Origin: Haematococcus lacustris
Taxonomy: Eukaryota; Chlorophyta; Chlorophyceae; Chlamydomonadales; Haematococcaceae
NCBI GenBank assembly: GCA_030144725.1
Contig: JASKMD010000003.1
Location: 15,516,582 to 15,580,581 of the forward strand
Length of the DNA: 64,000 nt
Direction of reading: 5' to 3'
The notes under the pieces were generated by a model. It saw only the letters and a list, made by a program, of their open reading frames with translations, made no database searches and was not told where the DNA came from. The number at the start of each line of letters is the position of its first letter. Position 1 is the stretch's first letter. The translations under genes were made by a program, and so were the position numbers. This document shows positions 18,046 through 62,567 of this stretch, piece after piece.

Positions 18046-18165
18046 AGTCCCGAACCCCTAGAGGGGGAGGGCGGCCTAGCAGCCTAACGGCTGACGGCTT
18101 AAGCGGTGTAAGCCACATCATCAACGTCATCACCATCCGGAAACCATCCGGAGTTTGCCATGACT
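18046..18165 (+). mobile_element. SINE-like structured insert in the LINE fossil, unit A
   Basis: A 120-bp insert flanked by TTCCAGAA direct repeats (18038-18045, 18166-18173). Its first 80 bp match the independent insertion at 55545-55627, including CCCCTAGAGGGG and two further stem-loops, followed by an ATC-rich tail. Repeated at 24409-24528 and 32503-32622. Confidence 0.7.
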
Positions 18166-29457: not shown

Positions 29458-29895
29458 GGTTAGGGAATGAGAGTGGGTGGGTGAGTTGCTGAGCGGGGCT
29501 ACGGGTGAAGGAGAGGTAGGGGAGAGTGGGTGGGGAAGGTAGGGGATGAGGCTGAGGTAGGGGAGGCTGAGGTAGGGGAGGTAGGGGAGGTATGGGAGGT
29601 AGGGGAGGTAGGGGTGATGTAGGGGAGGTAGGGGAGAGGAGGGGAGGCTGAGGTAGGGAAGGTAGGCTGAGGTAGGCTGAGGTAGGGAAGGCGGGTGAAG
29701 GAGAGGTAGGGGAGAGGTGGGAGGCGAGGAGAAGGAGAGGTAGAAGGGAGGAGGCTGATGGCAAGCTGGGCTGCTGGGAGGACGGGCTACTGGGAGCTGG
29801 GCGGAGTAGACGAGGTTGGGAGATGGTGGGTTAAAATGTGTTGGTGGGGGCCACGTGGCGAAGTTGTAAGCCAAGCTCGGACGTCTCCTAGTGCA

Positions 29896-33423: not shown

Positions 33424-34230
33424 TGTGCCTCCTCCCCGCTCCAGCCTAGCTTGGCCCTGGCTGCCTTGGCGTACAGCTTGACAATGCGCTCTGCAGGTCA
33501 GGTCAGGTCAGGTCAGGTCAGGTCAGGTCAGGTCAGGTCAGGTCAGGTCAAGTATAAGGTCAGGTATAAGGTCAGGTCCAGGTCCAGGTCCAAGTCTAGG
33601 GTCTAGTCACCATCATTACTTGCCTGGGTTGGAGTAGTGCTGCTGCATGGCCACCGCCAGCTGCATGGAGTGTGCGTCGATGGTGTTGTGGAAACCCGTC
33701 AGTTTGATGCTGCCCAGCTCCTGCAGCTTGGCCAGCAGCGCCTGGTTGTTGGGGTCCTCAAATGCGGACATGAGCATGGGGTGGCGGTTGGGCCCAAGGC
33801 GCCGCTGCAGCTGGTTGTAGCATGTCTTGAAGTTTGGGTTGGCGAAGAACTTGCAGAAGTCCTTGAGCTGCCTGAGCATCAGGGGGTCCTCGCAATCAAG
33901 GGGCAAGGGAGGGCCAGTGGGTGCTGCGGGTGCAAGGGCTGCCAGGCGGGCGCTGCAGCGCCTTTGGGGGGGTTGCGTGATTGGCTCAGGTTCTGACTCT
34001 GACTCTGACTCTGACTCACAGTCAGACTGTGGCTCTGGCTCTGAGCCACAGTCTGACTCGGAGTCAGAGTCAGTGTCAAACTCCATGCTGGCAGGCTGGG
34101 CAGGTGCTGGCTGGGCAGTGGCCCGTGGGGGGAGTGGGGGTAGGGGGGGAGCATCAGGGGGTTGGGGAGGCTGCACGGCTGGAGGCTGAGGGGCGCTGGC
34201 ATATCCCGGGGAGGGGTAGCCAACCAGGCA
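33424..34230 (-). pseudogene. Fanzor copy 3, exon 2 to start of exon 3
   Basis: Reads from 34230 leftward: Pro-rich and Ser/Asp/Glu-rich tract, EDPLMLRQLKDFCKFF block, then HYSNP at the same GC donor as copy 1, the GGTCA/CCTGA intron array (about 33490-33605), and the first 20 or so codons of exon 3 before a sharp break at 33424. Its upstream part lies at 53748-54250, because a Dualen-type retrotransposon sits between. All RuvC sequence is missing, so it cannot encode a nuclease. Confidence 0.9.
34217..34230. repeat. 14-bp target-site duplication of the plus-strand Dualen, left
   Basis: TAGCCAACCAGGCA, identical to 53748-53761 at the other end of the element. Fanzor sequence continues on the far side of both copies. 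Confidence 0.9.
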
Positions 34231-34379
34231 TAACTGTCCTACCTAACTTTCTAAGCGATTTTTCTCTTGCTTGCTTACAGGTCTCCCCAAGCCACTAGCT
34301 ACATCGTGCTCGGCGCAACGCGACGAGCCGAAAGAGCATAGTGAAGTTGGTCAACGTCCAAGGTCGGCGGTACAGGACG

Positions 34380-34962
34380 ATGGTGAAGACGGCTACGGTG
34401 TTTGTGTTTGCTTGCCTGATTGTTCTTCTCCCGGGAAATGTTGCAACCTTTTGGGACCGACTCATAAACGTGGCCGACACGACAGTGGCAACAGGACAGG
34501 ACCCCTTGGGGGCGGTGACCGGCCCTGCGTGGGTCGAGCGTGACATGATAGGATCATTCCCAACTGAGTTCGCACATTTACAAGTATGCAATCGGCTTCA
34601 ATTGACTCGAACGCCTCAAATGGCCTGGATTCCCATAACGTACTCCCGCTCGAGCCTAAATGGCCGAGACGCGGAAATGCCAATGTCTGTATGCCACCAC
34701 CAGGTCGACAACAAAACCCAGGAGACGCAAGCTCTGCAAGACGCCATTAGACAACCAGACAGAAGGCACAGGAACGCTACTTCCCAGCTCGCCAAGAAAG
34801 GTATTTGCTGCATTGACAGAGGTCCGTGCACTAGCCTGAACGAGACTGTGCCTAACGACCACACCTGTGCCCAGTGCTACACCACAAGGAGCAGCAACTG
34901 GCTAGCTACCAGAACCAGGCACCCACACACCCACAGCAACCAATCAGAGGACGAACAGCCCA
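34380..34962 (+). CDS. Dualen polyprotein, N-terminal part (interrupted)
   Basis: First ATG of the element (34380) opens with MVKTATVFVFACLIVLL, a hydrophobic stretch after a Lys that looks like a signal peptide or signal anchor. About 170 residues follow with several Cys and N-x-S/T sites (NAT, NET), ending in SNQSEDEQP. The frame is broken at 34962 by the nested element and resumes in phase at 41715; the intact copy at 63138-63160 shows the two parts joined. No domain recognised. Confidence 0.7.
34950..34962. repeat. 13-bp target-site duplication of the nested Dualen, left
   Basis: GACGAACAGCCCA, repeated at 41702-41714. The uninterrupted site is visible at about 63138-63150, followed directly by ATTACC. 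Confidence 0.9.
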
Positions 34963-37900
34963 GAAGAAGAAAGAAGAAGAAGACTACTCCGGTATTCACC
35001 GGCGTGCATTAAGGGAGGAGCTACCGCCTGGGGCGCGGCCTGCTCCCACCAATCAAGCAGGAAAAGAGGCAACCCCCCTACCCTCCATCCCTCTTAGTAG
35101 CCCTGAGTCTGTAGCTTGTCTTTGCGATGGAGTGGGCTGTCTCCACTGCGTGTCTTGTTAGCTTGTGTAACAGTTTAGTAGTGTTGCCTTGTGAGACCCC
35201 CAAGGCCAGGAGGTGTTGCCGTGTGTGTGCTTCATACGTTATGCCACCTATGCCAAGGAGGATAGGTCTAATCTCAACCATGTGGCCTTCCTTGCGTAAG
35301 GTTTGAGCTAGATTGGTGTGTTGGTTGAGTGCCCTGTCTAATTGATCCGTCCACCTTGAGTCCGAGCAGTACTTGATTTCTATGATGGTGACCCGTTTTG
35401 TGACTTTGCCGCTTTTGCCCGCCTTCGCTTGCGGCGTCACCATGAGTATATCTGGTCTAGTGGTGTTTTTGGTTGCCGCTGTTTTCAGTCCGAGTGCTCG
35501 TAGCGTTGTGTGTAGTGTGTCGTTAGGGAGGTCAAGGTTTTCCTTCGCGCCCTTCTCCCAGCTGCCGGTGTCCGCAAACCGGATGTACCCGCCCAGGGTT
35601 CCCTTGCTGATAGCTTTGACGATGAGGCGGCCGGCCCCGTTGTGCCTTTCTTGCACAAGCGGTAAGGTCTCGCTGCAGCCCGAAAGGAGGTGAGTGGCAC
35701 TGTCGGCTTCCCCGCAAAGTGGGCAACGGTCGTCAGTCGCCCGTTTCCAGCGCAGAGCTAGCTTTTGGTTGTAGAGCCCGCCGGTGCGGTAGAGTAGGGC
35801 AGTTCGTTGTGCGTGGGTGGAGATGTGCGCGTCGGTCATCACTCTTTCGCCCGCGCCTGGTGCTGCGACCTTCGTGATTTCTTGGGACATCAGGTAGTAG
35901 ATGCTGTCTTGGTTGGCAAGGCCAAGCTTGTGTTTGCGGTGCATATGTGCTCGCACGCTTTGGCGGCAATCCGGCAATGGGGCGGGGATTTCGCCTTCGG
36001 CTTCGTTGCTGAGCCAGGTGTTGGTCTCTTTCCGTGTGGTCGGGTGGTAGGCCGGGGTGTTGGCAAGCTCTGGGTGTAGCGCCGCGTGCTTGGCGAGGGC
36101 ATCGGCGCCTTCGTTGCCGATAATTCCCGAGTGGGCCCGGACTTTGTAGAAGTGGATCGTGACGGGGCTATCGATGATAAGGGTAGCGATCGCGGTCAGG
36201 ATGTCGTTGTGCCTGTGTGTGATGAGCGACATCGGGTTAGCGAGGGCTCGGCGGATCTGGTAGATAGAGCAGAGGCTGTCGGTGGCGATGCGTTTGGCCC
36301 CCGCTGTGAGTGCCGCGTGTATCGCCGTGAGTTCCGCCTTGTTAATGGTGTTGCTTTCTGGGTCGTCCAGGGCGACGGTGATGAGGACGTTGGTCTCCGG
36401 GATATAAACCCCCGCCCCGACGCTCGCTGGGGCTGCCCCCGAGGTCTTAATGCAGCTGCCGTCCGAGTACGCGAGCGTGGCCCATTCGGTGATGGCCATC
36501 CGTGGTTGCGTCGTGGAGTGTTGCGTGAGCTGTTGGTGGCTGCGTTGGTGCCCCGCGGTAGGGAGGTCCCTGTCCAACGGCAAGCGCATGTGTTGTTTGT
36601 GGCCGCTGGGGGGTGTGGCCGGCTGGCTTTGATTCGTGGGTCTGTTGTGGATTGGGTGTGTGTCTCGTTGAGGGTGGAGGGCAGTGGCAGTGCTAGCCAG
36701 CCATGCTTGGGGGTTGCCTTTGGTGACGAGTTGTTGTCCGGCTGCATTCCAGATGACGTAGATGTGGAGGGTGGCGTGCTTGCCTGACTTGGTGCAGCTG
36801 GTCTTGGTGGGGGGTATGCTTGCCAGGTGCTGGCAGTATTCTGGGTAGCGTCTTAGGGTGTCGATGTGTTTGGGGTAGGAGATGCCCTTTTTCCCAGGGA
36901 TCAGCACGATGGTGGCCATGGCCTCCTCCTGGGTAGCTGAGTGTATAGCATGGTTGACGCATTTCAGGGCCACCGCATCGTCTGCCGGTACGTTCCATGT
37001 GGATAGCCCAGTGTGGCGTACCAGTAGGCAGTTGTGGTGTGCGCCAAAGGCCGTGTCATTGATGTCAGGGCTCCAGTAGGTAGTAGTTTCCGGTCTAACT
37101 GTGAGTGGATCAGCCCACCTTTGGACGGTGCTAGTGAAGGATCGTGTGGTGTGCAGGGTGGTAAGGGCCCTGTCCTGTGCCACCCTCATGGGGTGGTGGC
37201 TGCTCTGTGTGTCCTGTCTCCTTAGGAGGGCAGCTACTTCTGTGGCCAGGTTGCGTGTGTGTGGTGTGTGTTGTAGCCAAGCGTGTAGGTGTTGGTGTTG
37301 GTCTTTTGTCAGGAGGCCAATCGTGCGACCCGACTCGTCGTGGACCGTGACGTGTTGCACTAGGTCGTGCTGTGGCATGATGGGCTCTCCCGTGCTGAGG
37401 CTCATCGCGGGGGTGGTCATGTGGGGGTGAAGTTGGAGGAAGGTTTCGCACTTGCCCGTCCCGATGATGTCCGTCTGCGGGTTAATGGGGTAGGTGTGGA
37501 AGGTGGCCTTCGAGTGCAGGTTGGTGCACCGGGGTAGCCAGGTGTGCGGGTCCGGTAGGCCCTGTCGGGTGTGGGCCGGCAGGTGCGTGTCGGGCCTCGC
37601 ATGTCTGGCCTCTTGTATCTGCCTGTTCTCCTCGTCGTAGACGCTGCGCTTTGCCATGTAGTCCAGGTGTGCCGTGATGAGCGGCGCCGGTTCAAAGGTG
37701 GGGTGCCAGTGTACTCGTATGAGGTCCGAGTGCGCTGACTGACGCATGGTAGTCTTGAAGTCATTGCTACCAAACTTGCATATAGGGCACAACCAGTAAC
37801 CTGGTTCCTTGTGCCCTGACAGGTGGGCTTCCTCAAGGCAGGCTGGGTGGTAGGCCCTCTTGCAGTTGTGGCACGTTGGGCTGTCTCCTCTTGGTAGCCA

Positions 37901-40900
37901 GCACAGCTCACAAGTGCACACGTCCTTCGCTTCTTCCCTGCTGATGGGTTCTATGTGTGTGGGTGTATAGCCTTCTTCTGCACACAGTGGTAATGCCCAT
38001 CTATCTATGACTGTGGGCTTCCAGTGCACCTTATAGTAGTTTTCCTTATTGATGCCGTCCCATTGCCAGCCATCTATGCTGGTTATGGCCTCTTGGTGGC
38101 CGTACATGGCCCCTAGTATGCAGCCTAGGTTCTTGGGTTTACATCGGCAGGCTTTGTCCACCTTCCAGCTGGACAGGCCTGGGAGGTCAAGGCCTACTAT
38201 GCGCACTACATCTTGCGGGATAGTTTGGGTCTGTCTGCCCTCATTGTTCCGTTTCGTGCCCGCCTTGGGTGGATTGGGCTTCGTTGGGGCCGATTGTGTT
38301 GCCCGTTGCTCTCGTTTCAGCAGTCGTGAGCTCGTCCGAGTGGCCTCATGGGCTGCGGGTGGCGCTGCGGCCCGGTCCGCCGTTGCTGGTTGAGTTGCAT
38401 GTATGACCGCATACGCTTTCATATCCATATAGCGTGTTCTGGTGTCTGGCACTGCGGGTGTGGGCGCAAGTTCCGTGAGGCCCGCGGCCCAGGTTGTGAT
38501 TTTGCGTTGGTCGGGCGGAAGATCGAGCGATGTGTTGCGGCTGTCTCGGATTGCACGCGTTGCGGTCGCGTCTGGGCATGAGGGTTGGGCCGCCATGGCC
38601 GCGAGTTTGTTGAGGGCGATGATGTGCTTCTGCTTGACCTTTTTCCCGTACTGTGATGTGAGCATGCTACCGGTGATGATGTGTGTGTTGCCCTTGCAGC
38701 TGAGCTCAGAAGCGTGCGTGATGCCTAGGCTTCTGAGGCAGGTGATGCTGGCGCTAACGACGTCGTGTGCTTGAGAGCTGCTGGCTTGTGTGATGAGGCG
38801 GCCGAGTGTTTGGCATTCCTCATGGTAGAGAGGTAGCCCCTCTTCCGTGGCCGACAACCCGGATATAGAGGCATAGACTAGCTGCCGTGCCCTAAGGGTA
38901 TGATGAAGGAGGGTGAGCATGCGGTGTCCTTGTGTGCTAGCCTGGGCACTGAGCCATGTGATTTGTTTGTGCAGCATGCTCCTCGATATGTGGGCGTGTG
39001 CCGCATCTGTGGACTGCAGGCTGTGTGTGAGGGCTGTCGTGTTGCGGGCGTGATACTCTTGGGCAGTGGAGCTAATGCCTATGCCTAGTCTGCCAGCGTC
39101 CTCTCTTATGATGGCATTGGGCGTTCCCAGGGGGAGTCTGAGTTTGAGCTTGACGCATTGGTTGATGGACCTATCGTACAGCTCAAGGTCCCCCGGGGTG
39201 CAGGGCACGGCACAGAAGCTGTAGGCTAGGCTGGGTATGATGGCCGTGCGAATGATGTGTATGGCCTGTCTAGCGCTAGCAAAGGAGCGTCTGAGTCTCT
39301 CGAGTTTTTGGCGGAGCTGGGTGATCATAGCGGTGTGTTGTGGTTTCCAGTCCAGCGTCATGGTGATGAGCACACCCAAGTAGGTGAAAGGTGAGGTCGG
39401 GCGGTGGTAGGTGACGGGTTTCCCTTGTAGGCTGACGGTTTGGAGTTGTTGGCGGGCCCGCTTGTCCGCTTCGGCCGCGTTGCTGCACATGCCAGTTTCA
39501 ACCGAGTGATGAAGCGCCGCGGTTGCGAGGGTTTTACTGTGTGAGATGACGAGGTGACCCCAGTCCGAGAAGGCTGAGAGTTTGTCTGCTTGGCATCGGA
39601 GGTTGCGAAGGGTGTTGCATAGTATAGCGATGTCATCTGCATAGTCGATGCTGCTGACGGTGGCGCGTTCCCCGCTGTCGTCTGCTGCTGATTTGAATTT
39701 AAAGCCCCTCGCGCCCACTTGCAGCCACCGCAGGAGGGGTTCGATGTAGATGAGAAATAGGAAGGGCGAGAGGGAGTCGCCTTGTATGGTGCCCCGGTTG
39801 ACGGGTACCGGGTCAGTATGGCCGTACGGGGTTTTAAAGCGCGTTGTGGCGCCCGTGTATAGGTCCTTCACTGCGTCAGTCGCGTCCGTGGGGAAGCCAA
39901 GGTCGTGCATGATCCATAGCAGTTTGTCTTGGCAGGTGGTGTTGAATGCACTGGTGAAGTCGACCAGGAGCGCGTAAATATCTGCCTTGGCCAGTTTAGC
40001 ATCCTCAAGAGCCATGACAAGCATCTGCAGCTGTTGCGTGGTGTTCCTGTGGGAGCGGAACCCAGCCTGGTTCTTGCTGAGCATCCCATTAGCTTCAGCA
40101 TACTCAGACAGCGTCTTGGTAATGAGGCTGGTCCATAGCTTATAAACGGTGTTGGCTAGGCCCACTGGCCTGTAGGAGTTAAGGTCCGTTTCTTGCCCTT
40201 TGTCCTTGTAGAGCAGGCATGTGTCACTGGTCTTCCACGTGGTTGGTGTGCAGCCGGTGGCCCACATGATGATGAACAGCTGGTGGATGGTGTCCCTCAT
40301 CTCCCATGGCAGCATCTTGATGATTTCGTTTTCCACACCGTCTGGTCCCGGTGCCTTGCCTCCTGCCAGCCTGCTGAGGCATTCTTGGAAGCCTGCCTTG
40401 TCCATGATGGCTGTGTGCAGCCAGTGTATGTTTTGGCATGCGTGCATTGCGAAGGCGTCGTCTGCTTTGGCGCGAGCCCACGGGTAGTTTCGTGTCTGTG
40501 TGTTAGTGTAGTTGCCAGTCTTGGGGGCCGGGGCCGATAGCTTCTGCCCGTATGCGGCGGTTATTATCCGGTTTAGGTCGGCAGGGGCGGTGCATATGGT
40601 CTTGGTTTCAGAATCGGCTAGCGCCTGCAGGCCTCTGTGGTCGGTGCGGGACGGGCGTAGGATACGTTTGTTAGCCTTCTTGGGCTGGGTGCTTATCAGT
40701 TGTTGCATTCTGACACGAGCTTGTGCGATGGCGAGTGCAGAGTCATCGTCATCGAGTTGGTGGATTTGGTCGCGGTACGTATTGGTCAGTTGGGCGAGCG
40801 CGGCCTGCACGTGATTTTCAGTTGGGTCTTCATCCTGTCGCGCTTGCACCGCGTCCCTGATCTCATCGTTTATCGCATCTGTCCCTGAAATGAGTTCGTC

Positions 40901-41701
40901 GATTGTCGGGTGCACGTTGGTTTGCTTAAAGAGGGAGTTAGCCTTCCGGCTGAGGTCTCTAGTGGTCTTAAGTTTTCTGCCCAGTGCCAGTCTAATCCTG
41001 CACATGGTCCTGCGTTGGTAGTGTTGGCCTCCCCTCGTGAGGGTCTTAGTGTTGCATGTCTTTATAGCTGCTGTCCTGCAGGTTTGTAGGAGGTGTGTAA
41101 GCATGGTGGCTGCTGTGTCTACAGCTTCCCTGGCCGGGCGTCCTGCCACTGATGTCAGACGTTGTGGTTGTTGAGGGTTGGTCTTGCCCAGTGTAGCCAG
41201 GTGGTGGGTGGCCTCTGTGTATATGGGGGCTAAGAAGGCTGTCAGTTCCGCATGCAATTGTGGGACGCCTGAGCTGGGTTGTTGCACTGCCAGGCGGTAG
41301 GCTTCCCTGTCCTTATTGGTAATGGGGGTGGTGAGGAGAGTGTGGCTATGTTTCGGTAGTTTGTGTGGGGCTGCCAGGTCTAGGCCCAGGCGGGCTGTAT
41401 TCAGTGTGGCAGTGAGTGGTCTGTGGTCGCTCAGATAGACGTTGGTATCGACGTGCGTGCGGTGCTCAGGTCCGTGTCTTGCGTCGCGTGTTAGGATAGC
41501 GTCGATGCGGCTGGTGCAGTGCGGTTGCTGGTAGGTCCAGGCCCGGTCGCCGGGATCAGCTTCCTTCAGGTGCATTTCAGTGGCGAACCCCCTCATCATG
41601 CTGTCTTGTGTGTATTCGGTGTGCTCGGAACGATCCTCTGTTTTCATCGTGGCGTTAATATCTCCCGCCAGGATGAGTGAGCCGGGCAGATGGCCCGTGG
41701 C
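34963..41701 (-). mobile_element. 5'-truncated Dualen relative, nested, minus strand
   Basis: A 6.7-kb insertion with a 13-bp target duplication. Its 3' end (left side) carries the same CCGG-type hairpin and TTC tail as the plus-strand element. Its 5' end is cut inside the AP endonuclease domain, just before the LILAGDINA motif, the usual result of incomplete reverse transcription. It differs from the plus-strand element by many substitutions, so it came from another source copy. Confidence 0.92.
35078..41701 (-). CDS. Dualen polyprotein, 5'-truncated but open: partial APE, RT, PHD, RNase H, CCHC, RLE
   Basis: About 2200 codons remain open without a stop. From the right: end of the AP endonuclease (GDINAT, SRIDAIL, SDHRPL), RT with GGKAPGPDGVENEI, LLVDFTSAFN and YADD (39632-39643), PHD finger C4HC3 (about 37780-37915), RNase H with AYSDGSC and AELTAIHA (about 36060-36480), CCHC knuckle CPLCGEADSATHLLSGC (about 35670-35725), and the RPD...EIKYC restriction-like endonuclease core (about 35365-35465). 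The apparent N-terminal 20 residues upstream of 41701 are host sequence read antisense, so no native start exists; it can be expressed only by fusion. The 2A motif, Josephin domains and repeats are absent because of truncation. Confidence 0.9.
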   Translation of the reverse strand, partial: ATGHLPGSLILAGDINATMKTEDRSEHTEYTQDSMMRGFATEMHLKEADPGDRAWTYQQPHCTSRIDAILTRDARHGPEHRTHVDTNVYLSDHRPLTATLNTARLGLDLAAPHKLPKHSHTLLTTPITNKDREAYRLAVQQPSSGVPQLHAELTAFLAPIYTEATHHLATLGKTNPQQPQRLTSVAGRPAREAVDTAATMLTHLLQTCRTAAIKTCNTKTLTRGGQHYQRRTMCRIRLALGRKLKTTRDLSRKANSLFKQTNVHPTIDELISGTDAINDEIRDAVQARQDEDPTENHVQAALAQLTNTYRDQIHQLDDDDSALAIAQARVRMQQLISTQPKKANKRILRPSRTDHRGLQALADSETKTICTAPADLNRIITAAYGQKLSAPAPKTGNYTNTQTRNYPWARAKADDAFAMHACQNIHWLHTAIMDKAGFQECLSRLAGGKAPGPDGVENEIIKMLPWEMRDTIHQLFIIMWATGCTPTTWKTSDTCLLYKDKGQETDLNSYRPVGLANTVYKLWTSLITKTLSEYAEANGMLSKNQAGFRSHRNTTQQLQMLVMALEDAKLAKADIYALLVDFTSAFNTTCQDKLLWIMHDLGFPTDATDAVKDLYTGATTRFKTPYGHTDPVPVNRGTIQGDSLSPFLFLIYIEPLLRWLQVGARGFKFKSAADDSGERATVSSIDYADDIAILCNTLRNLRCQADKLSAFSDWGHLVISHSKTLATAALHHSVETGMCSNAAEADKRARQQLQTVSLQGKPVTYHRPTSPFTYLGVLITMTLDWKPQHTAMITQLRQKLERLRRSFASARQAIHIIRTAIIPSLAYSFCAVPCTPGDLELYDRSINQCVKLKLRLPLGTPNAIIREDAGRLGIGISSTAQEYHARNTTALTHSLQSTDAAHAHISRSMLHKQITWLSAQASTQGHRMLTLLHHTLRARQLVYASISGLSATEEGLPLYHEECQTLGRLITQASSSQAHDVVSASITCLRSLGITHASELSCKGNTHIITGSMLTSQYGKKVKQKHIIALNKLAAMAAQPSCPDATATRAIRDSRNTSLDLPPDQRKITTWAAGLTELAPTPAVPDTRTRYMDMKAYAVIHATQPATADRAAAPPAAHEATRTSSRLLKREQRATQSAPTKPNPPKAGTKRNNEGRQTQTIPQDVVRIVGLDLPGLSSWKVDKACRCKPKNLGCILGAMYGHQEAITSIDGWQWDGINKENYYKVHWKPTVIDRWALPLCAEEGYTPTHIEPISREEAKDVCTCELCWLPRGDSPTCHNCKRAYHPACLEEAHLSGHKEPGYWLCPICKFGSNDFKTTMRQSAHSDLIRVHWHPTFEPAPLITAHLDYMAKRSVYDEENRQIQEARHARPDTHLPAHTRQGLPDPHTWLPRCTNLHSKATFHTYPINPQTDIIGTGKCETFLQLHPHMTTPAMSLSTGEPIMPQHDLVQHVTVHDESGRTIGLLTKDQHQHLHAWLQHTPHTRNLATEVAALLRRQDTQSSHHPMRVAQDRALTTLHTTRSFTSTVQRWADPLTVRPETTTYWSPDINDTAFGAHHNCLLVRHTGLSTWNVPADDAVALKCVNHAIHSATQEEAMATIVLIPGKKGISYPKHIDTLRRYPEYCQHLASIPPTKTSCTKSGKHATLHIYVIWNAAGQQLVTKGNPQAWLASTATALHPQRDTHPIHNRPTNQSQPATPPSGHKQHMRLPLDRDLPTAGHQRSHQQLTQHSTTQPRMAITEWATLAYSDGSCIKTSGAAPASVGAGVYIPETNVLITVALDDPESNTINKAELTAIHAALTAGAKRIATDSLCSIYQIRRALANPMSLITHRHNDILTAIATLIIDSPVTIHFYKVRAHSGIIGNEGADALAKHAALHPELANTPAYHPTTRKETNTWLSNEAEGEIPAPLPDCRQSVRAHMHRKHKLGLANQDSIYYLMSQEITKVAAPGAGERVMTDAHISTHAQRTALLYRTGGLYNQKLALRWKRATDDRCPLCGEADSATHLLSGCSETLPLVQERHNGAGRLIVKAISKGTLGGYIRFADTGSWEKGAKENLDLPNDTLHTTLRALGLKTAATKNTTRPDILMVTPQAKAGKSGKVTKRVTIIEIKYCSDSRWTDQLDRALNQHTNLAQTLRKEGHMVEIRPILLGIGGITYEAHTRQHLLALGVSQGNTTKLLHKLTRHAVETAHSIAKTSYRLRATKRDGG

Positions 41702-41714
41702 GACGAACAGCCCA
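41702..41714. repeat. 13-bp target-site duplication of the nested Dualen, right
   Basis: GACGAACAGCCCA, identical to 34950-34962; the plus-strand element resumes immediately after. Confidence 0.9.
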
Positions 41715-44700
41715 ATTACCAGCCCAGGCCGCTGCGGGAGTCTACCTTGCATGCTTTACATGCTGGCCTGCTGCCCTGCACCAGGCACCCACACACCCAC
41801 AACAACCAAACAGAGGATGAACAGCCCCCTGACCAGCCCAGGCCGCTGCGGGGGACTACCTTACCTGCTTCCCATGCTGACCTGCTGCCCCGCACAGATA
41901 TGCATGTCACAGAGATGCCAACTGACCATGCTGACATGCAGGCTGACAATAGACATGGCGCCCAGCCCCACCACCACCTGCCAGCCCTGACCGCTACAGC
42001 CTTGCATGACCAGCTGGCTGTCACAGAGATGCCAACTGACCATGCTGACATGCAGGCTGACAATAGACATGGCGCCCAGCCCCACCACCACCTGCCAGCC
42101 CTGACCTCTACACCCTTGCATGACCAGCTGGCTGTCACAGAAATGCCAACTGACCATGCTGACATGCAGGCTGACGATAGACATGGCGCCCAGCCCCACC
42201 ACCACCTGCCAGCCCTGACTGCCACAGCCTTGCATGACCAGCTGGCTGTCACAGAGATGCCAACTGACCATGCTGACATGCAGGCTGACAATAGACATGG
42301 CGCCCAGCCCCACCACCACCTGCCAGCCCTGACCTCTAAACCCTTGCATGACCAGCTGGCTGTCACAGAGATGCCAACTGACCATGCTGACATGCAGGCT
42401 GACAATAGACATGGCGCCCAGCCCCACCACCACCTGCCAGCCCTGACCGCTACAGCCTTGCATGACCAGCTGGCTGTCACAGAGATGCCAACTGACCATC
42501 CTGACATGCAGGCTGACAATAGACATGGCGCCCAGCCCCACCACCACCTGCCAGCCCTGACCGCTACAGCCTTGCATGACCAGCTGGCTGTCACAGAGAT
42601 GCCAACTGACCATCCTGACATGCAGGCTGACAATAGACATGGCGCCCAGCCCCACCACCACCTGCCAGCCCTGACCGCTACAGCCTTGCATGACCAGCTG
42701 GCTGTCACAGAGATGCCAACTGACCATGCTGACATGCAGGCTGACAATAGACATGGCGCCCAGCCCCACCACCACCTGCCAGCCCTGACCGCTACAGCCT
42801 TGCATGACCAGCTGGCTGTCACAGAGATGCCAACTGACCATGCTGACATGCAGACTGACAATAGACATGGCGCCCAGCCCCACCACCACCTGCCAGCCCT
42901 GACCGCTACAGCCTTGCATGACCAGCTGGCTGTCACAGAGATGCCAACTGACCATCCTGACATGCAGGCTGACAATAGACATGGCGCCCAGCCCCACCAC
43001 CACCTGCCAGCCCTGACCGCTACAGCCTTGCATGACCAGCTGGCTGTCACAGAGATGCCAACTGACCATCCTGACATGCAGGCTGACAATAGACATGGCG
43101 CCCAGCCCCACCACCACCTGCCAGCCCTGACCGCTACAACCTTGCATGACCAGCTGGCTGTCACAGAGATGCCAACTGACCATGCTGACATGCAGGCTAA
43201 CAATAGACATGGCGCCCAGCCCCACCACCACCTGCCAGCCCTGACCGCTACAGCCTTGCATGACCAGCTGGCTGTCACAGAGATGCCAACTGACCATCCT
43301 GACATGCAGGCTGACAATAGACATGGCGCCCAGCCCCACCACCACCTGCCAGCCCTGACCGCTACAGCCTTGCATGACCAGCTGGCTGTCACAGAGGTGC
43401 CAACTGACCGTCCTGACATGCAGGCTAACAATAGACATGGCGCCCAGCCCCACCACCACCTGCCAGCCCTGACCTCTACACCCTTGCATGACCAGCTGGC
43501 TGTCACAGAGATGCCAACTGACCATGCTGACATGCAGGCTGACAATAGACATGGCGCCCAGCCCCACCACCACCTGCCAGCCCTGACCGCTACAGCCTTG
43601 CATGACCAGCTGGCTGTCACAGAGATGCCAACTGACCATGCTGACATGCAGGCTGACAATAGACATGGCGCCCAGCCCCACCACCACCTGCCAGCCCTGA
43701 CCGCTACAGCCTTGCATGACCAGCTGGCTGTCACAGAGATGCCAACTGACCATCCTGACATGCAGGCTGACAATAGACATGGCGCCCAGCCCCACCACCA
43801 CCTGCCAGCCCTGACCGCTACAGCCTTGCATGACCAGCTGGCTGTCACAGAGATGCCAACTGACCATCCTGACATGCAGGCTGACAATAGACATGGCGCC
43901 CAGCCCCACCACCACCTGCCAGCCCTGACCGCTACAACCTTGCATGACCAGCTGGCTGTCACAGAGATGCCAACTGACCATGCTGACATGCAGGCTAACA
44001 ATAGACATGGCGCCCAGCCCCACCACCACCTGCCAGCCCTGACCGCTACAGCCTTGCATGACCAGCTGGCTGTCACAGAGATGCCAACTGACCATCCTGA
44101 CATGCAGGCTGACAATAGACATGGCGCCCAGCCCCACCACCACCTGCCAGCCCTGACCGCTACAGCCTTGCATGACCAGCTGGCTGTCACAGAGGTGCCA
44201 ACTGACCGTCCTGACATGCAGGCTAACAATAGACATGGCGCCCAGCCCCACCACCACTTGCCAGCCCTGACCTCTACACCCTTGCATGACCAGCTGGCTG
44301 ACACAGAGATGTCAACTGACCATGATGACACGCAGGCTGACAATAGACATGGCGCCCAGCCCCACCACCACCTGCTTGTGAACTGTAAGGGGGCCCTCCA
44401 CATTGTTGCCAATTTGCAACCCCCCATGGGACATGCGGATTGGGAACCCCTTCACAACACCCAGACATGCCCTATGATAGACATCGTCACCATGGGCATT
44501 ATCATGTGGATAATGATACGAGCTGGGCGTCACCACCCCCAGCCACCCACCAAAACAGAGTCTCACAAACGCATGAGAAAACAACGCAAGAATCTTACTA
44601 AACTACAAGCCACGGCCCACACCACTGCCTACAACTGGCTACACAATATAGATGGCACCAGCAGCGGGTGGGTAACCATAGGACACCTGGCCCACCAGAC

Positions 44701-47700
44701 CCACACCTACCTAACGGGAAGGACTAACAACAAAACCTATACCATAAACCAGTACAACACAACCATCCAGGCATACATGACCTTCCGTATTAACACGCAC
44801 ACGACCTACACCACCGACAACATTAAGAGGTTGACCATGGGAGCCATTAACTACCTCACACACATCGGCTGGCTGCTCATGGCAGCAGGTGACATAGAAC
44901 CAAACCCTGGCCCTGAGGGACCCTACTTTGAGAAACAAGTAGCCCACCATTGCCAAATCCATGCCCTGAACATGGTAGTAGGACACCCATGGTTAAGTAA
45001 CCAAGACCTGGCCAACTTCCACACTTCGGAACTCAACGCGCGACAAGGCGACCAGATGTGGGCGCTAGCCAGAGACGAACAAGGCGCGTGCAACGACACA
45101 GTCGTTAACCTCTACCTGACATCACACTACGGCCTCAGCACACACACAGTGGCGCAACTTAAAACTGGAAGGGACTGGTCGACCCGCCACCTCGACGCCC
45201 TAGCCGAAACCCACGGCATCACCGCCTTCCTGTGCAAAGCCCCCGCCCATAGCATGGCGATCAGGAAACACAACGATATATGGTACCTCCTTGACTCCGA
45301 AGCGACGACCCCTACACCGCTGCGGGTCACCGGCAATCGCGCGTACCATGCAGCCTGCGAGATACAAACTATTACCACTATCTCGCACCCCACAGCACCT
45401 ATGACAGCGGCCCGCACCAGGGCAAGGCTTGGGCCTATCATCAGCACCTCAAACCACACCTTCACAACGGCAGCGGCATGCATCGGGGCAAGGCCAGGGC
45501 CCACCAACCCCCGGAAAACACATAGGCCCTACTGGGAAAGCCAACACAAGAAGTGCTGCTTGGTGCACGCCATTAACATGGCCATGGGAGAACCAATGAT
45601 TAACCCCGAAGACGTCATCACCCACTGCAAAACACTAGACACGCACATCCAAGACCTGGCCACCAAGGCAAGGCAAGAGCATAAGCCAATCCCACTACAA
45701 AACAATCTCCCACACATCTACCACGACCAAGGCAACTTTACCATATCCACCATCAACCACTACCTATACCACTACCATAAAGACCTACACCTATGCCCAA
45801 CAACACAGGAACTACCCCACGGCAGCATCACTCAAGAGCTCCTCACTGGGACCACCGGCAAGCCGGACAGCCACACCAACACAGTAGCTGCCATCCTTTT
45901 CACCGACAACCACGCCACCACCATCCGCCACATGGACAACGCCTGGCACTGGCTGGACTCGGAACGGGACCACCCACAGCGGCTGGACACCCCGGCAGCC
46001 TGGAGTCAGCTGCATGGCAGGCTTGTCCAAATCAGAAAAGGGACCGCGCAAAACACCAACCTCATTGAGCCCTTATGCTGGCTGGCTGACCCGACCACCC
46101 GCGCCACAACGGAGCAACTGGAACAACACCTACGCACCACCTATGTGGACCTCACGAACTTAGGCCGGGATACACCCGCACACAGCCCCCATGCAGATCG
46201 GCCAACACCCAGAACCGACACTTCACAACAAACGAGCACCAAGCGCAAAGACACGCCACGAGAGGATGCCCACCCACCGGCTAAGCCCACCCAGCAGCCG
46301 CCAAACCGCCAAGCAGCACCCACGGTTACCCTTCCCACCACGCAACGCAACACTACACGGCCCGCATCATCACGTCCCACCAGTTGCAGCACCATACGGC
46401 GACCCAAACCCAGGGCTCTGCCTAGAGACACGCACACGCAGACGTCAATGTACCAATACCTCAATGTAGCCCCCACCCTGCCCCCTACCGCCTACCAAAC
46501 AGCTAACCCACCTGAAGACACAACAGCCCAAAGCCAACGCAATACCCTCCCAAGCCAGATGCCACAGCCCACACCTAGCCGGACAACCATCACCCTCACT
46601 ACCTTCAACGTCAGAGGCCTCCACAGGTCCAGAAAAGATGTCCTACACCTAGTGCACACGCACAGCCCGGACATTCTGATTCTCACTGAGACTATGACCC
46701 AACCAAAGAGCAACAACCCCAGCTGCGGATGGCTAAAACGAGTTATGCCCAACTATATTGTCCACCGCCACCGAGGCCACAGCGAGGTACTCATAGGCAT
46801 CAAACACGACCTTGCTATCCAGACGCATGCCACTATGCTACCGCCGTGCACAGACGCGGAAGTAAACACTCGATGCGTGATCCTGACCCTACGCCAGCAC
46901 AAATGCGAAGAGCTTACCATCGTAGCCACGTACTGGCCCTCAGGAGACAACGACGACGCGATCCCGTTGCGAGAGAAAATGCAGGAACACATACGAACAA
47001 CCACAGAACGCGCTCCCGGATCACTCATTCTGGCGGGAGACATCAACGCCACGATGAGAAAAGAAGATCGATACGGACACACCGAGTATACACAAGACCG
47101 CATGATGAGGAAGTTCGCCGATATGCTGCTCCTGTCCGAGGCCGACCCCGGGGACCGGGCCTGGACCTACCAACAACCACACTGCAACAGCCGCATCGAC
47201 GCCATCCTGACGCGCGATGCTCGACACGGATCAGAGCACCGCACGCACGTCGACACGCACGCGTACCTCAGTGACCACAGACCACTCACCGCCACCCTAA
47301 CCACAGCCAGACTGGGCATAAACCTAGCAGCCATACGTACACCCCAGAAGCAATGCCATACCGTCCTCACCACCCCCATCACCAACAACGACAGGGAAGC
47401 CTACCGCCTAGCTGTGCAACAGCCCAGCTCAGGCGCCCCACAGCTACATGCACGACTGACAGCCTACCTGGCACCTATGTACACAGAAGCCACCCACTTC
47501 CTGGCCACGCTAGACAAGGCAAACCCACACCATCCACAACGTCTAGCACAAGTGGCAGGTCTCACAGCCAGGGAGGCTGTGGACACCGCATCTACTATGC
47601 TTACTACCCTCCTGGAAACCTGCAGGAGGACTGCCATGCAGACATGCAACACTAAGACCCTAACCAGAGGAGGGCAACACTACCAACGCAGAACCATGTG

Positions 47701-50700
47701 CAGGATCAGACTGGCACTAGGGGAAAAGCTCAAGACTACTAGGAACCTCTGCCGGCAGGCAAGACTGCTATTCAAACAAAACGGCTCCCACCCGACGATT
47801 GGAGATCTCATCCCAGAGACGGACACGACCAACGCAGAGGTGAGGGAGGCGGTACAAGCGCGCCAGGGAGATGACCCAACCGAGGATCACGTGCCGGCCG
47901 CACTCGCCAAGCTAACCAACTCCTACCGCGACCAAATACACCAGCTGGACGACGACGACTCCGCTCTCGCCATCGCGCAAGCCAGAGTCAGAATGCAACA
48001 ACTCATCAGCACCCAGCCTAAGAAAGCTAACAAACACATTCTTCGCCCGTCCCGCACCGACCACAAGGGCCTGCAAGCGCTATCGGATCCCGACACAACG
48101 AAGACCTGCACAGCCCCGGCCGACCTCAACCGGATTATCACCGCCGCCTACGGACAGAAGCTGACGCCGCCAAACCCGAAGACCGGCCATTACACCAACA
48201 CGCTGACCAGAAACTATCCCTGGGCCCGCCCCAAAGCCGACGACCCCTTCACGTTGCACACCTGCAAAAATATACATTGGCTGCACACAGCCATCATGGA
48301 CAAAGCAGGCTTTCAAGAATGCCTCAGCAGGCTGGCAGGAGGCAAAGCACCAGGGCCAGACGGCATTGAGAACGAGATCATCAAGATGTTGCCATGGGAG
48401 ATGAGGGACACTATCCACCAGCTGTTCATCATCATGTGGGCCACTGGCTGCACACCCACAACATGGAAAACCAGTGACACCTGCCTGCTTTACAAGGACA
48501 AGGGCCAGGAAACTGATCTCAATGCCTACAGACCTGTAGGGCTGGCAAACACTATCTACAAGCTTTGGACCAGTCTCATCACCAAGACACTGTACGAATA
48601 TGCAGAAGCCAACGGGATGCTCAGCAACTGCCAAGCTGGTTTCCGGTCCCACAGAGACACCACCCAGCAGCTACAGATGCTAGTCATGGCTCTTGAAGAT
48701 GCTAAACTGGCCAAGACAGATATTTACGCGCTCCTTGTCGACTTTACCAGCGCGTTCAACACCACCTGCCAGGACAAACTACTATGGATCATGCACGACC
48801 TAGGCTTCCCCACGGACGCTACCGACGCTGTAAAGGACCTATACACGGGCGCCACAACGCGCTTCAAAATTCCCTACGGCCACACCGACCCCGTACCCGT
48901 CGACCGGGGCACCATCCAGGGAGACTCGCTCTCACCCTTCCTGTTCCTCATCTATATCGAACCTCTCCTACGCTGGCTCCAAGTAGGAGCGAGGGGGTAC
49001 AAGTTTACATCAGAGACAACCGACAGCGCCGGGCGATTTACAATTGGTAGCATCGACTACGCGGATGACATCGCTATCCTATGCAACTCGATCAGCAATC
49101 TACGCTGCCAGGCAGACAAGCTCTTCGCCTACTCCGATTGGGGCCACCTCATCATATCACACAGCAAAACCCTCGCCACAGCCGCACTCCACAAGGCACA
49201 CCAGTCCGGCAGGTGCAGCACACTAGCGGACGCGGAAAAGCAAGCCCGCAGGGAATTGCAACACGTGCGGCTGCAAGGAAAGCCGGTCACCTACCTCCCC
49301 CCAACCGCACCCTTCGCCTACCTAGGAGTCCTGCTCACCATGACACTCAATTGGAAACCACAACACATGGCCATGGCGGCACAACTCAAACAAAAGCTGG
49401 AGAGACTACGGCGCTCCTTTGCCAGCGCTAGACAAGCCATCCACATCATCAAGACAGCCATCATTCCCAGCCTGGCCTACAGCTTCTGCGTAGTCCCGTG
49501 CACACCAGGAGACCTAGACCTATACGACAGAGCAGTCAACCAATGCGTCAAGAAAAAGTTGAGGCTACCGTTAGGCACAACCAATGCCGTCATCAGGGAG
49601 GACATAGACAAGCTCGGCCTAGGCATCAGCTCCACAGCCCAGGAGTATCATGCAAGGAACACCACAGCCCTCATACATAGCCTCCAATCTGCGGACGACA
49701 CACATGCCCACACAACCAGGAGCATGCTCCACAAACAAATCACTTGGCTCTACGCTCAAGCTGCCAAGCATGGACACCGCATGATCAATATGCTGCAACA
49801 CACCCTTCGTGCCAGGCAACTCCTCCATGCGACCACAGCCCAGCTCAAGGCCACACACCAAGGAGAAGAACTGTACCCTAAGGAAACCAAACTACTTGGG
49901 CAGCTCATCACACAGGACAACAGCCCCCTCCCACATGACATAGTCAACGCAAGCATCACATGCCTCAAGAGCCTTGGTATCAAGCATGCTTCCGAGCTCC
50001 AACAAGCCATTGCCGACGACACATACATCATATCAGGAAAGATGCTAAAGAACCGCTTCGGCAACAAGGTCAAGCAAAAACACTACATCGCCCTCAACAA
50101 GCTGGCGGCCATGGCGTCCCGGGATAAGTGCCCGACCGCGACTGAAGCTAAAGCCATCGCAGATAAACGTGACACCACCATGGACCTGACAGCTGCACAA
50201 AGAAAGATAAAACACTGGGCCGCGGGACTAACAGAACTCGCACCCATCGGAGCCGAAGAGGACACTACGCACCGCTACGCTGACATCAGGGCCTTCACGG
50301 TAGCCAAGCTGCCACCCACACAGCCACCCGCACAAGAACCCATTGCGGAGCGTGCCCAACCACCCGACGACACCCTACGGCGCAGCTCTAGGGTTAGGAA
50401 CAAACCCCCAAAGCCATCACCCGCGACCCCACAACCCAAACCACCGCCCAAGATCGGCAGTAAGAGACAAGCAGACGACAGACACATCCAGACCATACCA
50501 GAGGATGTGATACACATACCCATCATGACCCTAGATAGCCTCCCCAGCTGGAAAGCTAATGCCGCGTGCGAACGCAGTGCCAAGGAACTAGGGATCACGC
50601 TAGGAGCCATGTATGATCACCAAGAATCCATCACCAAGATCGATGGATGGCACTGGAATGGCATAAACAAAGAAAGCTACAACAACGTGCATTGGGGACC

Positions 50701-53632
50701 CACCATTATAGAGAAATGGGCACTCCAGATGTGCAAGGAAGAAGGCTACACGCCCATGCACACAGAAGACATCAGCAGGGCAGATGCCAAACATGTATGC
50801 ACTTGTGAACTATGCTGGGAACCAAGAGGAGAGAGCCCTATGTGTAACAACTGCATGAGAGCCTACCACCCAGCCTGCCTAGCTCAGACAGGCCTACCTG
50901 GGATGACGGCTGACAAACACTGGCTCTGCCCCGTCTGCGCACACGGCCCCGACGATGTCATAGACGACATGAGAAAATCAGCGGCAACTGACCTGATGAA
51001 GGTCCACTGGCACCCCACCACTGAACCTAAGGCGCTCATCCAAGCGCACATAGACTACACCGCCAAGCAAAAGGAGTACGACGCGGAGAACAATAGGAGG
51101 CAAGGGACGGGACGCCCACCACCCGACGCGGGCCTCCCAGGTCACACCCGGCAGGGCCTACCCGACCCCCACACATGGATGCCCCGCTGTATCGACCTGC
51201 ACTCAAAGGCCACCTTCCAAGTCTCGCCCGTGAACCCGCAGACTGACATCGTAGGAACGGGGAGATGCGAAACCACCATCCAGCAACACGCCCACATCAC
51301 CACACCAGCCACGAGTGAAGGGAGCCAGGGACCCACCCTGCCCCAATACAGCCTCCCCACACATGTGATAGCCCACGACGAGGCAGGACGCACAGTGGGC
51401 CTGATCACTAAAAGCAAACAGCAAGACCTCGCCACGTGGCTGCAACACACCCCACACCTAAGGGATCATGCCACCGAGCTGGTAGCCCTCCTCCGTAGGC
51501 ACGACACACAAAACACCCCCCAACCCATTCAAGCAGCACAAGACAAAGCCATCTCTACCCTCTACAACACTCACCACTTCCCTAGCACGGTCCAGAGATG
51601 GGCTAACCCACTCACAGTCAGGGCTGAAACCACAACATACTGGAGCCCGGACATCAATGACACAGCCTATGGGGCACACCACAACTGCCTCCTTGTCAGA
51701 CACACAGGGCTCTCCACATGGAACGTGCCAGCAGAGGATGCCATAGCCCTGAAATGCATCAGACATGCCATACACTCTGCCACACAAGAGGAGGCTATGG
51801 CCACCATCCCGCTCATACCTTGCAAGAAAGGCATCTCGTACCCCAAACACATAGACATGTTGAGAAGCTACCCAGAGTACTGCCAACACATAGCCACCAT
51901 TCCTCTCAACAAACCCAACGCAGCCGCCAAGTCAGACAAGCATGCCAAGCTCATCACCTACATCGTTTGGAACCAGGCTAGGCAACAGCTCGTCACCCAT
52001 GGGAACCCACAGGGCTGGCTGGCCAACACAGCCACTGCACTCCACCCACGACTAAGGACACATCCGGCTCTGGCAAAGCCCTCACAACACAACCAGCCCA
52101 CCCCGCTGCCAAGCGGCAACCACAAACACCGTGGCCTACCAGCAGACCATGAGCTCCCCTCCACGGGGCATACACGCCAAACTAACCAGCCTGCCTTCCA
52201 GCCCACCACCCACACACACAGAGCCATACCAGAGTGGAAGAAGGTGACATACACGGATGGAAGCTGCATCAAAGGCACCGAGGGAGCATCAGTGGGAGCA
52301 GGCGTGTACACGCCGGCCAGCGACGCTCGGATCACCATTGCCCTAACCGGCGACACCACCATCAATAGAGCAGAGCTCATAGCTATTCTCTCAGCGCTGC
52401 AGGCAGGAGCCAAGCGCATCGCCACCGACAGCCTCTGCTCACTCTACCAGATACGTAGGGCGCTCGCCAACCCGATGTCGCTCCGCACGCACCGCCACAA
52501 AGACATACTGGCAAAGATAGCAACTATGTTGACTAACAGCCAGGACACGGTACACTTCTTCAAAGTCCGCGCCCACTCCGGCATCATCGGGAACGAGGGA
52601 GCTGATGCACTGGCCAAGCACGCAGCGAGGCACCCAGAGCAAGCCACAACGCCGGGCCCCTGCCCGCCCAGGCACACCGAGCAACACGCGTGGCTGAGCA
52701 CAACAAGTGAACTCAACGTCACCACCCCGATGCCGGACTGCCGCCACAGTGTACGCGCGCACATGAGCAACAAACATAAACTCGGCCTCGCCAACCAAGA
52801 GAGCATCTACTACCAGATGTCACGGGAAATCACCAAGGCAGCGGCGAAAGGCTCCTGCGAAAGAGTGATGACCGACGCGGGCATCCCAACAGAGGCGCAG
52901 AGGACCGCCCTACTCTATCGGACGGGCGGGCTCTACAACCAGAAACTGGCAATGCGCTGGGGAAAGGCGGCGGATGACCGGTGCCCGCTATGCAGGGAGG
53001 CCGACAGCGCGACACACCTACTCTCGGGCTGCAGCCGCACCGCAGCCCTAGTACAGGAACGACATAACGGGGCGGGGCGCCTGATCACGAAAGCTATCAG
53101 CAAGGGAGCCCAAGGAGGGTGCATCAAGTTCGCGGACATCGGCAGCCACGAACGAGGCGAGACGGAAGGCATCGATTTACCCAGCGCCACGCTACGCAAG
53201 GCCCTAGAAGTCCTGAGCCTCTCAGCCAGGGACACCAACACGACCACCCGCCCGGACATCATCATGATCAACAACACGAAGAAAAGGAAGCAGGGATCGA
53301 ACGAGTCAACCAAACACGTCACCCTGCTGGAAATCAAGTACTGCGCTGACTCGAGATGGGCCGATCAGCTAGACAACGCTACCACACAACACGCTGCCAT
53401 GGCAGAAGCCATCATCGCAGCAGGACACACGGTCTCAGTTAGACCCATCCTGCTGGGAATAGGCGGCATCACTTACAACACACATACCAAGCTACACATG
53501 GAAGCCATAGGCATCACGCAAACCAACACCACTAAACTGCTAAATAAGCTGACTAGACATGCGGTCATAAGCTCACATAGCATAGCCAGAACCAGCTACA
53601 GACTCAGGGCAGGTGTCAAGGATGGGGGCTGA
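41715..53632 (+). CDS. Dualen polyprotein, main part: repeats, 2A, two Josephin-like, APE, RT, PHD, RNase H, CCHC, RLE
   Basis: A single open frame of 3972 codons, in phase with 34380-34962. Order by DNA position: His-rich 38-aa repeats (41906-44373), hydrophobic MGIIMWIMI (about 44490-44520), 2A motif (44891-44914), Josephin-like 1 (C at 44951, H 45248, D 45293), Josephin-like 2 (C 45557, H 45911, D 45956), AP endonuclease (N in TFNVRG 46607, E 46688, D of GDIN 47039, SDH 47270-47278), RT (GGKAPGPDG about 48340; D 48740; YADD 49058-49069), PHD (50798-50940), RNase H (D 52256, E 52373, D 52427, D 52604), CCHC CX2CX7HX4C (52982-53032), RLE core RPD 53249-53257 and EIK 53330-53338. It should drive target-primed reverse transcription. 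Dual endonucleases define Dualen; the twin proteases, PHD and 2A are what I add from sequence. Confidence 0.92.
41906..44373 (+). repeat. 114-bp (38-aa) in-frame tandem repeat array, 21.6 copies
   Basis: Period 114 bp starting at each GTCACAGAG. The consensus protein unit begins VTEMPTDHADMQADNRHGAQ and ends HDQLA, with a PHHH cluster. Variants (HAD/HPD, ATAL/ATTL/STPL, QADN/QANN, VPTDRPD) recur in the same order in units 9-14 and 16-21, so a block was duplicated. Because the period is a multiple of three, antisense and shifted frames are also open over 2.4 kb; they are not genes. Confidence 0.95.
44891..44914 (+). other. 2A ribosome-skipping motif (GDIEPNPGP)
   Basis: Codons for D-I-E-P-N-P-G-P match the 2A consensus D(V/I)ExNPGP exactly, preceded by a hydrophobic stretch (WLLMAAG) as is usual. 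Skipping would fall between Gly (44909-44911) and Pro (44912-44914), about 37 codons before the first Josephin-like Cys, and would release the repeat-bearing N-terminal product from the enzyme polyprotein. Confidence 0.85.
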
Positions 53633-53747
53633 AGGGTTTCTTCACATCCAGGTTAGGCGGTGGGAGCAAGCCGCGCCCCAGGCGGAAGCTCCTCCCTTAA
53701 TACACGCCGGCTCCGCCGGAGTAGTCTTCTTCTTCTTCTTCTTCTTC
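53633..53747 (+). other. Dualen 3' UTR with hairpin and TTC tail
   Basis: The distal part includes GCTCCTCCCTTAAT, a CCGGC-TCC-GCCGG hairpin, GAGTAGTC and about seven TTC units. The nested element's 3' end (34963-35077) shares these features with an altered loop, so this is the conserved end that the reverse transcriptase would recognise. Confidence 0.75.
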
Positions 53748-54250
53748 TAGCCAACCAGGCAGGTGAGAAAAATGTGCAAGACTAACAGTGAAGCGATGAA
53801 GCGGAGCTGGGAGTGGATTTCAGCCCGCAGCCGGAGGTGCTCGCGCAGCTTGCGCCTGGTCTTCTTGCAGCCGCGCAGCACTGCGCCCTTGGGGACCTTG
53901 ATGACCTGCAGCCAAGCAAAGTTGTCATTTTGACAGGCCAAGACAAAAGACAAGGTCAACACAAACAGTGCGGGGACACATAAGGCGGGGCCGTCACCTG
54001 ACGGCGACGCGTGGTCCAACCATCCCGACGATTCTGTCGTTGCTTGCCTTGGGCGGAACGAGACGCTGCGATGGAACCAACAGGAGCGACGGGTTATCTC
54101 ACAGCGCGTAATTCACGTCTAGAGCTCACGTCACGGCTGGGGACACGCACCTTTCTGTTTCTTGTCGCTACCCTTCCGCTTCTTCTTAGCCATCACGCGA
54201 TGCGCAGTGCGACGGGCGGTGGCCTTTTCTAGCAACTTGGGTTTCCCGTG
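53748..54250 (-). pseudogene. Fanzor copy 3, exon 1 and start of exon 2
   Basis: Reads leftward from about 54250: MAKKKRK start near 54192, intron, then IKVPKGAVLRGCKKTRRKLREHLRLRAEIHSQLR, ending at the Dualen target site TAGCCAACCAGGCA. It continues on the far side of the Dualen at 34230. Compared with copy 1 the first exon has changed downstream of KKQK, introducing a TGA unless a GTGCGT donor is used there, and the copy 1 acceptor TAG is TTG. Together with 33424-34230 it forms one disrupted gene. Confidence 0.88.
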
Positions 54251-62418: not shown

Positions 62419-62567
62419 TAACTGTCCTACCTAACTTTCTAAGCGATTTTTCTCTTGCTTGCTTACAGGTCTCCCCAAGCCACTAGCTACATCGTGCTCG
62501 GCGCAACGCGACGAGCCGAAAGAGCATAGTGAAGTTGGTCAACGTCCAAGGTCGGCGGTACAGGACG

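Follow-up and report, generated by a model that had tools for sequence, protein, structure and literature searches.

What kind of element carries the giant reading frame found in a 64,000-nucleotide stretch of the green alga Haematococcus lacustris (contig JASKMD010000003.1; this whole stretch is the window hereafter), and how would such an element move? A preliminary description, made from the letters of the window, had seen in it a giant single-ORF (open reading frame) Dualen-type retrotransposon. Self-comparison and direct reading of the window place a 12.8-kb non-LTR (lacking long terminal repeats) retrotransposon, named here element A, at 34231-53747 of the + strand. Element A very probably belongs to the Dualen/RandI kind, a clade name given by structure, with a size of about 12.3-12.8 kb, one giant polyprotein and movement by target-primed reverse transcription.

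The coordinates proposed earlier enclose exactly one element: it is bounded by 14-bp target-site duplications, and the empty site, i.e., the same host repeat without the element, is found at 1460-2700 of the window (92-93% identical). It is not continuous, being interrupted here in its 5' part by a nested relative, element B, whose stop-to-stop frame (35078-41755) has 2225 aa. A further copy, C, is uninterrupted where A carries B. Since A and C are 99.2% and 100% identical in flank and element, respectively, C is probably a segmental duplicate of A that predates the insertion of B. That A and C had each inserted at one preferred site was considered first and rejected, segmental duplication being simpler with flank and element nearly identical. 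The first 50 nt of A (34231-34281) and C (62419-62469) resemble a splice acceptor (CTAAC, a pyrimidine tract and TTACAG) and could capture host exons upstream.

The polyprotein of A presents, in this order, a hydrophobic N-terminus (a hydropathy peak), 38-aa repeats, a 2A motif, two Josephin-like domains, an apurinic/apyrimidinic-type endonuclease (APE), a reverse transcriptase (RT), a PHD finger, a PCIF1-like domain, RNase H, a CCHC knuckle and a restriction-like endonuclease (RLE). The parts named in the preliminary description (APE, RT, RNase H, CCHC, RPD..EIK, PHD, two Josephin-like domains, 2A and repeats) are all present in A, with intact catalytic residues in the sequence; the PCIF1-like domain had been overlooked. 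Pfam recognized RNase H and Josephin (two stretches, whole-protein E-value 4.7e-18) in A and gave no match to the APE, the PHD finger being matched below threshold only. Pfam on A alone also missed the PCIF1-like domain, and thus relatives, profiles and folds were needed; for example, PF03372, absent from the whole-protein scan of A, was matched at 1.2e-11 in the sister protein P0007. Among 35 proteins compared, the catalytic Cys, His and Asp of the first Josephin-like domain are conserved in 34, 31 and 30, and those of the second in 31, 35 and 34, with gaps counted as misses. The spacer of the 2A motif varies (DIEPNPGP, DIEENPGP, DVEANPGP and others) around a constant DxExNPGP. Chromodomain-like segments, hW.P...W.L and VdW.PtWEP, flank the PHD finger (50627-50743 and 50993-51052), an assignment that is not established.

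Table 1. Features of element A, its nested relative B and copy C (window positions).
Feature	Position	Strand	Remarks
Target-site duplication of A, 5' copy	34217..34230	+	14 bp, TAGCCAACCAGGCA; final A possibly the element's first base
Element A, 5' part	34231..34962	+	5' end, 149-nt leader, ATG 34380, hydrophobic N-terminus MVKTATVFVFACLIVLLPG
Target-site duplication of B, first copy	34950..34962	+	13 bp, GACGAACAGCCCA
Element B	34963..41701	-	second relative, inserted in A, 5'-truncated inside the APE; 70% aa identity
Stop-to-stop frame of A	41681..53632	+	3983 aa; first residues overlap the end of B
Target-site duplication of B, second copy	41702..41714	+	13 bp
Coding tandem repeat	41905..44375	+	21.7 copies of 114 bp (38 aa)
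2A motif	44888..44914	+	GDIEPNPGP, P0001 residues 1070-1078; directly before the first Josephin-like domain
Josephin-like domain 1	44915..45352	+	Cys/His/Asp kept
Josephin-like domain 2	45524..45991	+	Cys/His/Asp kept
APE (exo_endo_phos)	46595..47299	+	Pfam match in sister P0007 and relative P0070; motifs intact in A
RT	48278..49327	+	YADD
PHD finger	50792..50947	+	under the Pfam cut-off in A; PF00628 matched by 10/21 members of A2
PCIF1/CAPAM-like methyltransferase fold	51260..52048	+	NVPA in place of NPPF
RNase H	52232..52639	+	PF00075 1.3e-18, D-E-D-D motifs
CCHC knuckle	52973..53080	+	followed by RHN
RLE	53246..53515	+	RPD..EIK
3' terminal hairpin	53707..53719	+	CCGGC-TCC-GCCGG
3' tail	53727..53747	+	(TTC)7
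Target-site duplication of A, 3' copy	53748..53761	+	14 bp
Copy C	62419..64000	+	5' part of A's element, same flank; ends at the window edge

Counting from the ATG to the last codon, with the phase kept across insert B, gives 4166 codons, in agreement with the restored frame of about that length claimed beforehand. In the genome (307.9 Mb, 597 contigs), which was searched for further copies, three other full-length copies were read: K1 (12,574 bp), K2 (12,296 bp) and K3 (12,425 bp). K2 and K3 each contain one uninterrupted ORF of 4040 and 4077 aa, respectively, and in K1 the frame falls into two pieces of 2205 and 1941 aa. For residues 2200-3983 of the frame of A there are database proteins up to 97% identical, and 66 of the 72 matches are named Haematococcus lacustris. 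Among 49 metagenome relatives the domains found stand in the same order in every one: the PCIF1-like domain and the RLE in 47 each, PHD in 38, APE in 33, Josephin in 18 and all eight in 14, counts that involve many short contigs and come from hidden Markov models (HMMs) trained on this very set. A giant frame of this kind might be an artefact, put together from separate genes, by joins in the assembly or by fusion of gene models, as Gypsy or Copia domains are attached to many of the database models (by Pfam, among the matches listed), not all Haematococcus database proteins are colinear (see below) and A itself is interrupted. However, the open copies at two other loci and the domain order of the metagenome relatives refute, as judged from sequence, an explanation that is hardly credible.

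It could also be thought that the N-terminal repeat part is untranslated, translation starting near the 2A or Josephin domains and the repeats being a leader minisatellite. Two frames of the opposite strand are likewise open across the repeat array, and the variants of the repeat unit are mostly non-synonymous (31 of 35 changes). Such within-array counts carry no information, as the units share their variants. Against this, the start MVKTA is common to K1, K2 and K3, and in K2 and K3 one frame runs from it through to the stop; the database protein P0007 (4340 aa) has the same start, beginning MVKTATVFVFACLIV; the 149-nt leader of A has no ATG upstream of ATG 34380; the 38-aa period recurs in divergent copies; and the part before the 2A has a ratio of nonsynonymous to synonymous rates (dN/dS) of 0.31-0.34 for A against K2 and K3. 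An untranslated repeat part is thus unlikely.

The ends of the element bear on how it inserts. A and B end alike, with a hairpin followed by (TTC)n. The hairpin of B, CCGGT-GAAT-ACCGG, has one compensated pair with respect to that of A, and the folding energies are unexceptional (z -0.65 and -1.56). The motif CCGGAGTAGTCTTCTTC occurs only at the ends of A and B, with 0.01 occurrences expected by chance. The genome-wide search for 3' ends yielded 1840 candidates at first look; 40 that were scored are 96-100% identical, two weaker pieces (75 and 85%) accompanying these well-matched ones, and the best 30 were fetched. All 30 end in (TTC)4-10, and all have distinct flanks, which speaks against site specificity. 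Six out of seven distinct 5'/3' pairs are bordered by 10-14-bp duplications; the pair without duplication (L062/L015) probably joins two elements. The best 30 of 41 5' matches were also fetched, a sample that favours complete 5' ends; among the other 11, four start later in the query (27, 38, 33 and 137), one covers bases 1-134 only and one bases 1-47 only. The start is shared by 29 of the 30 fetched. Two positions before AACTG, 24 of 26 distinct copies have an A (binomial p 5e-16, the flanks having 18% A), after dropping from the 30 loci L067, without the 5' motif, and three with duplicate flanks. The pattern is that of target-primed reverse transcription with no choice of site, complete copies having a defined start at A.

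Kojima and Fujiwara reportedly described, in 2005, Dualen/RandI elements with APE, RT, RNase H, RLE and a cysteine protease. The same structural set in A supports the Dualen-type reading: the APE lies upstream of the RT, the RLE is C-terminal and accompanied by CCHC, RNase H is present, and a cysteine protease is represented by the Josephin pair, of a type that may differ from the published one. The short non-A 3' repeat, (TTC)n in A, and the green-algal host are likewise shared; Table 3 of PMC3747384 gives a short non-A 3' repeat for 8 of 8 green-algal RandI families. The statement that dual endonucleases are established in Dualen/RandI is also borne out, since passages in the literature describe Dualen with both endonucleases and RNase H; the clade is mentioned in PMC4640811, PMC3636483, PMC8226300 and PMC3747384. 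What A apparently has in addition to Dualen/RandI as described is the tandem Josephin behind the 2A, the 38-aa repeat N-terminus, and the PHD and PCIF1-like domains between RT and RNase H.

In a tree of 39 RTs, 24 rows of the family, including those of Pleodorina and Cymbomonas, group as a single clade (100/99) that excludes the remaining rows, namely three of R2, one of L1 and 11 others; the tree has no Dualen/RandI row, is unrooted (midpoint for drawing only) and has several long outgroup rows and weak deep joins. The relatives considered are 120 of 197 and 120 of 157 matches, and the rest may include Chlamydomonas Dualen. The RT of A is nearer to R2 than to L1, both against solved structures (4.8e-22 and 8.7e-13) and in profile comparisons (5.8e-53 and 6.1e-29), and its C-terminus is R2-like. 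These similarities would fit an R2-type RLE lineage that had independently gained APE, RNase H and protease, the endonuclease pair being of separate origin and the likeness to Dualen superficial. But published Dualen reportedly has the same set; a protein of Pleodorina that combines Josephin, APE and RT falls inside the RT clade of A; and, according to a passage of PMC8226300, Dualen occurs in all Chlamydomonas-related species of one study. A separate origin is accordingly quite improbable, even more so than an untranslated repeat part, and the Dualen/RandI assignment is preferred.

Other known systems differ further from A. R2 inserts site-specifically into 28S ribosomal DNA and is not known to contain an APE, an RNase H, or a PHD, PCIF1 or Josephin part; in contrast to R2 (Bombyx, Taeniopygia, Platysternon; 8gh6, 9nl3, 9nl2), the fetched copies of A's 3' end have 30 different flanks, and no Rfam match was found within the 64-kb window. 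L1 has only an APE and no RLE, whereas A has an RLE. By its title, a 2013 work of Odon is said to deal with 2A in APE-type non-LTR retrotransposons; the 2A is shared by A, where it borders the N-terminal part and the enzymes. The NeSL/Utopia elements, in the passages of PMC4640811 that describe them, carry an N-terminal Ulp1 protease, i.e., a cysteine protease of the ubiquitin-like-protease type, together with a C-terminal RLE, an arrangement like that of A, and no APE is named there; their protease is Ulp1 and that of A is Josephin, although the relative P0105 has Ulp1 (C48) in the protease slot (1.3e-22, residues 661-779). An OTU-like stretch is seen by eye before residue 523 of P0072. The protease slot thus varies across the clade, between Josephin, Ulp1 (P0105) and, by eye, OTU-like (P0072). 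The metagenome protein P0075 (4104 aa) is a distant giant in which APE, RT, PHD and RNase H follow one another in the usual order and inspection by eye suggests an RPD..E stretch at the C-terminus; its RT is nearer to L1 than to R2, and it may represent another dual-endonuclease lineage. The clade member P0151 is filed as a protein of an Agrobacterium metagenome-assembled genome, probably a eukaryotic contamination. A scan of viral contigs gave 59 pattern matches and no relative of the element.

Between A and B, dN/dS is 0.18 over 2189 codons, with 0.07 for RT, 0.11 for CCHC, 0.12 for RNase H, 0.16 for the APE part, 0.17 for the PCIF1-like domain, 0.22 for PHD and 0.24 for RLE; the linkers reach 0.40. 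Against K2 and K3, the values are 0.17 and 0.28 for Josephin and 0.13-0.14 for APE. By these ratios, the domains of the element, both APE and RLE included, are shown to be under purifying selection. The comparison with K2/K3 (L071-L074 against 46595-53632) is a mosaic, dS being about 0.6-1.1 in the old parts, Josephin, APE and PHD (about 0.9 in APE and 0.6 in PHD), and 0.02-0.14 in the nearly identical RT, PCIF1-like domain, RNase H and RLE, as if from recombination or template switching between subfamilies.

Several observations weigh against the reading of A as a Dualen/RandI element with one giant, domain-rich polyprotein. The clade name rests on structure, with no Dualen/RandI reference sequence in the comparison. 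The 5' end gave only 41 candidates, against the 1840 of the 3' end, so that many copies or related subfamilies probably lack the 5' end, and most may be 5'-truncated. Of 88 Haematococcus database proteins only 32 have a strict 2A, and of the 49 metagenome relatives only 2; many of these proteins are cut or badly modelled, yet the 2A is still not universal. Colinearity holds for only 56 of the 88 and the full set of eight domains for 30, counts disturbed by fused gene models and by drift of the first Josephin HMM onto the RNase H region of the Haematococcus proteins, whose Josephin counts and list of missing 2A were left unused. PHD and PCIF1 remain below the Pfam cut-offs in A itself, and dN/dS of the PCIF1-like domain rises to 0.57 for A against K2 and K3, where changes are few (dS 0.023).

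The PCIF1-like domain, common to the Haematococcus and Cymbomonas elements, has as its best fold matches six PCIF1 entries (6iry and five others), over 210-218 residues. It shares with PCIF1/CAPAM the fold and the aligned FASPL and FG stretches; it differs in that the catalytic NPPF is kept in none of 49 aligned element rows, NPEY being commonest (14 rows) and NVPA standing in A and B, in that no WW domain appears in the Pfam list of A, and in its location inside a retrotransposon polyprotein. Animal PCIF1 methylates the adenosine adjoining the cap, and the element RNA apparently begins with A, a coincidence that is suggestive of a PCIF1 link, no more. The domain might be an active m6A/m6Am writer that marks the element RNA or the target DNA, rather than a binding module; the fold matches, its presence in 47 of the 49 relatives and the apparent start at the nucleotide that PCIF1 methylates would agree with this, but the loss of NPPF makes it improbable. 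Alternatively, PCIF1/CAPAM would have been captured early and its catalytic motif blunted, the domain reading the m7GpppA-capped 5' end of its own RNA, selecting transcripts in cis and helping some insertions to reach the precise 5' A, while PHD tethers the complex to chromatin and the two endonucleases split the first- and second-strand cuts. This proposal is doubtful, though less so than an active writer, and the large excess of 3' over 5' candidates makes it slightly less likely. Among the papers listed in the literature searches, none treats, by title or abstract start, the addition of PHD and PCIF1, most subscription papers falling outside this coverage; at the same level, none of those listed shows a retrotransposon polyprotein that has captured a cap-methyltransferase fold.

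Elsewhere in the window, a 3.2-kb block is present in three near-identical (99.9%) segmental copies (15434-18594, 21799-24957 and 29893-33051), with more copies to 33428, a recent local amplification adjoining element A. The pentamer AGCCC is repeated 91 times (99% matches) at 60202-60656. Seven other ORFs of the window were searched with Pfam, with nothing in five and sub-threshold coiled-coil matches in two.

The sequence establishes, for the element, the 10-14-bp duplications, the shared 5' start and 3' end, the (TTC)n tail, the unrelated sites, the two endonucleases, the RT and the RNase H. A possible cycle would begin with transcription from the 5'-terminal A and translation of the capped RNA as one frame. 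The 2A would release an N-terminal ORF1-like protein, comprising the hydrophobic start and the 38-aa repeats, from the enzyme part that begins at the first Josephin; the Josephin pair might act as deubiquitinase or polyprotein processor. The PHD finger would bind chromatin and the PCIF1-derived domain the element's own capped RNA, probably without methyltransferase activity. First-strand nicking would fall to one endonuclease and second-strand nicking to the other; the hairpin and UUC tail would be where the RT starts to copy the RNA, which RNase H would remove.

For a retrotransposon with a single protein, element A is exceptionally rich in domains, and it has recent copies, as the near-identical 3' ends indicate; of the three copies read, two are fully open. 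It makes testable why an element retains an APE as well as an RLE when purifying selection acts on each, and it hints that some LINEs (long interspersed elements) may choose their own RNA in part by recognizing its capped 5' end.

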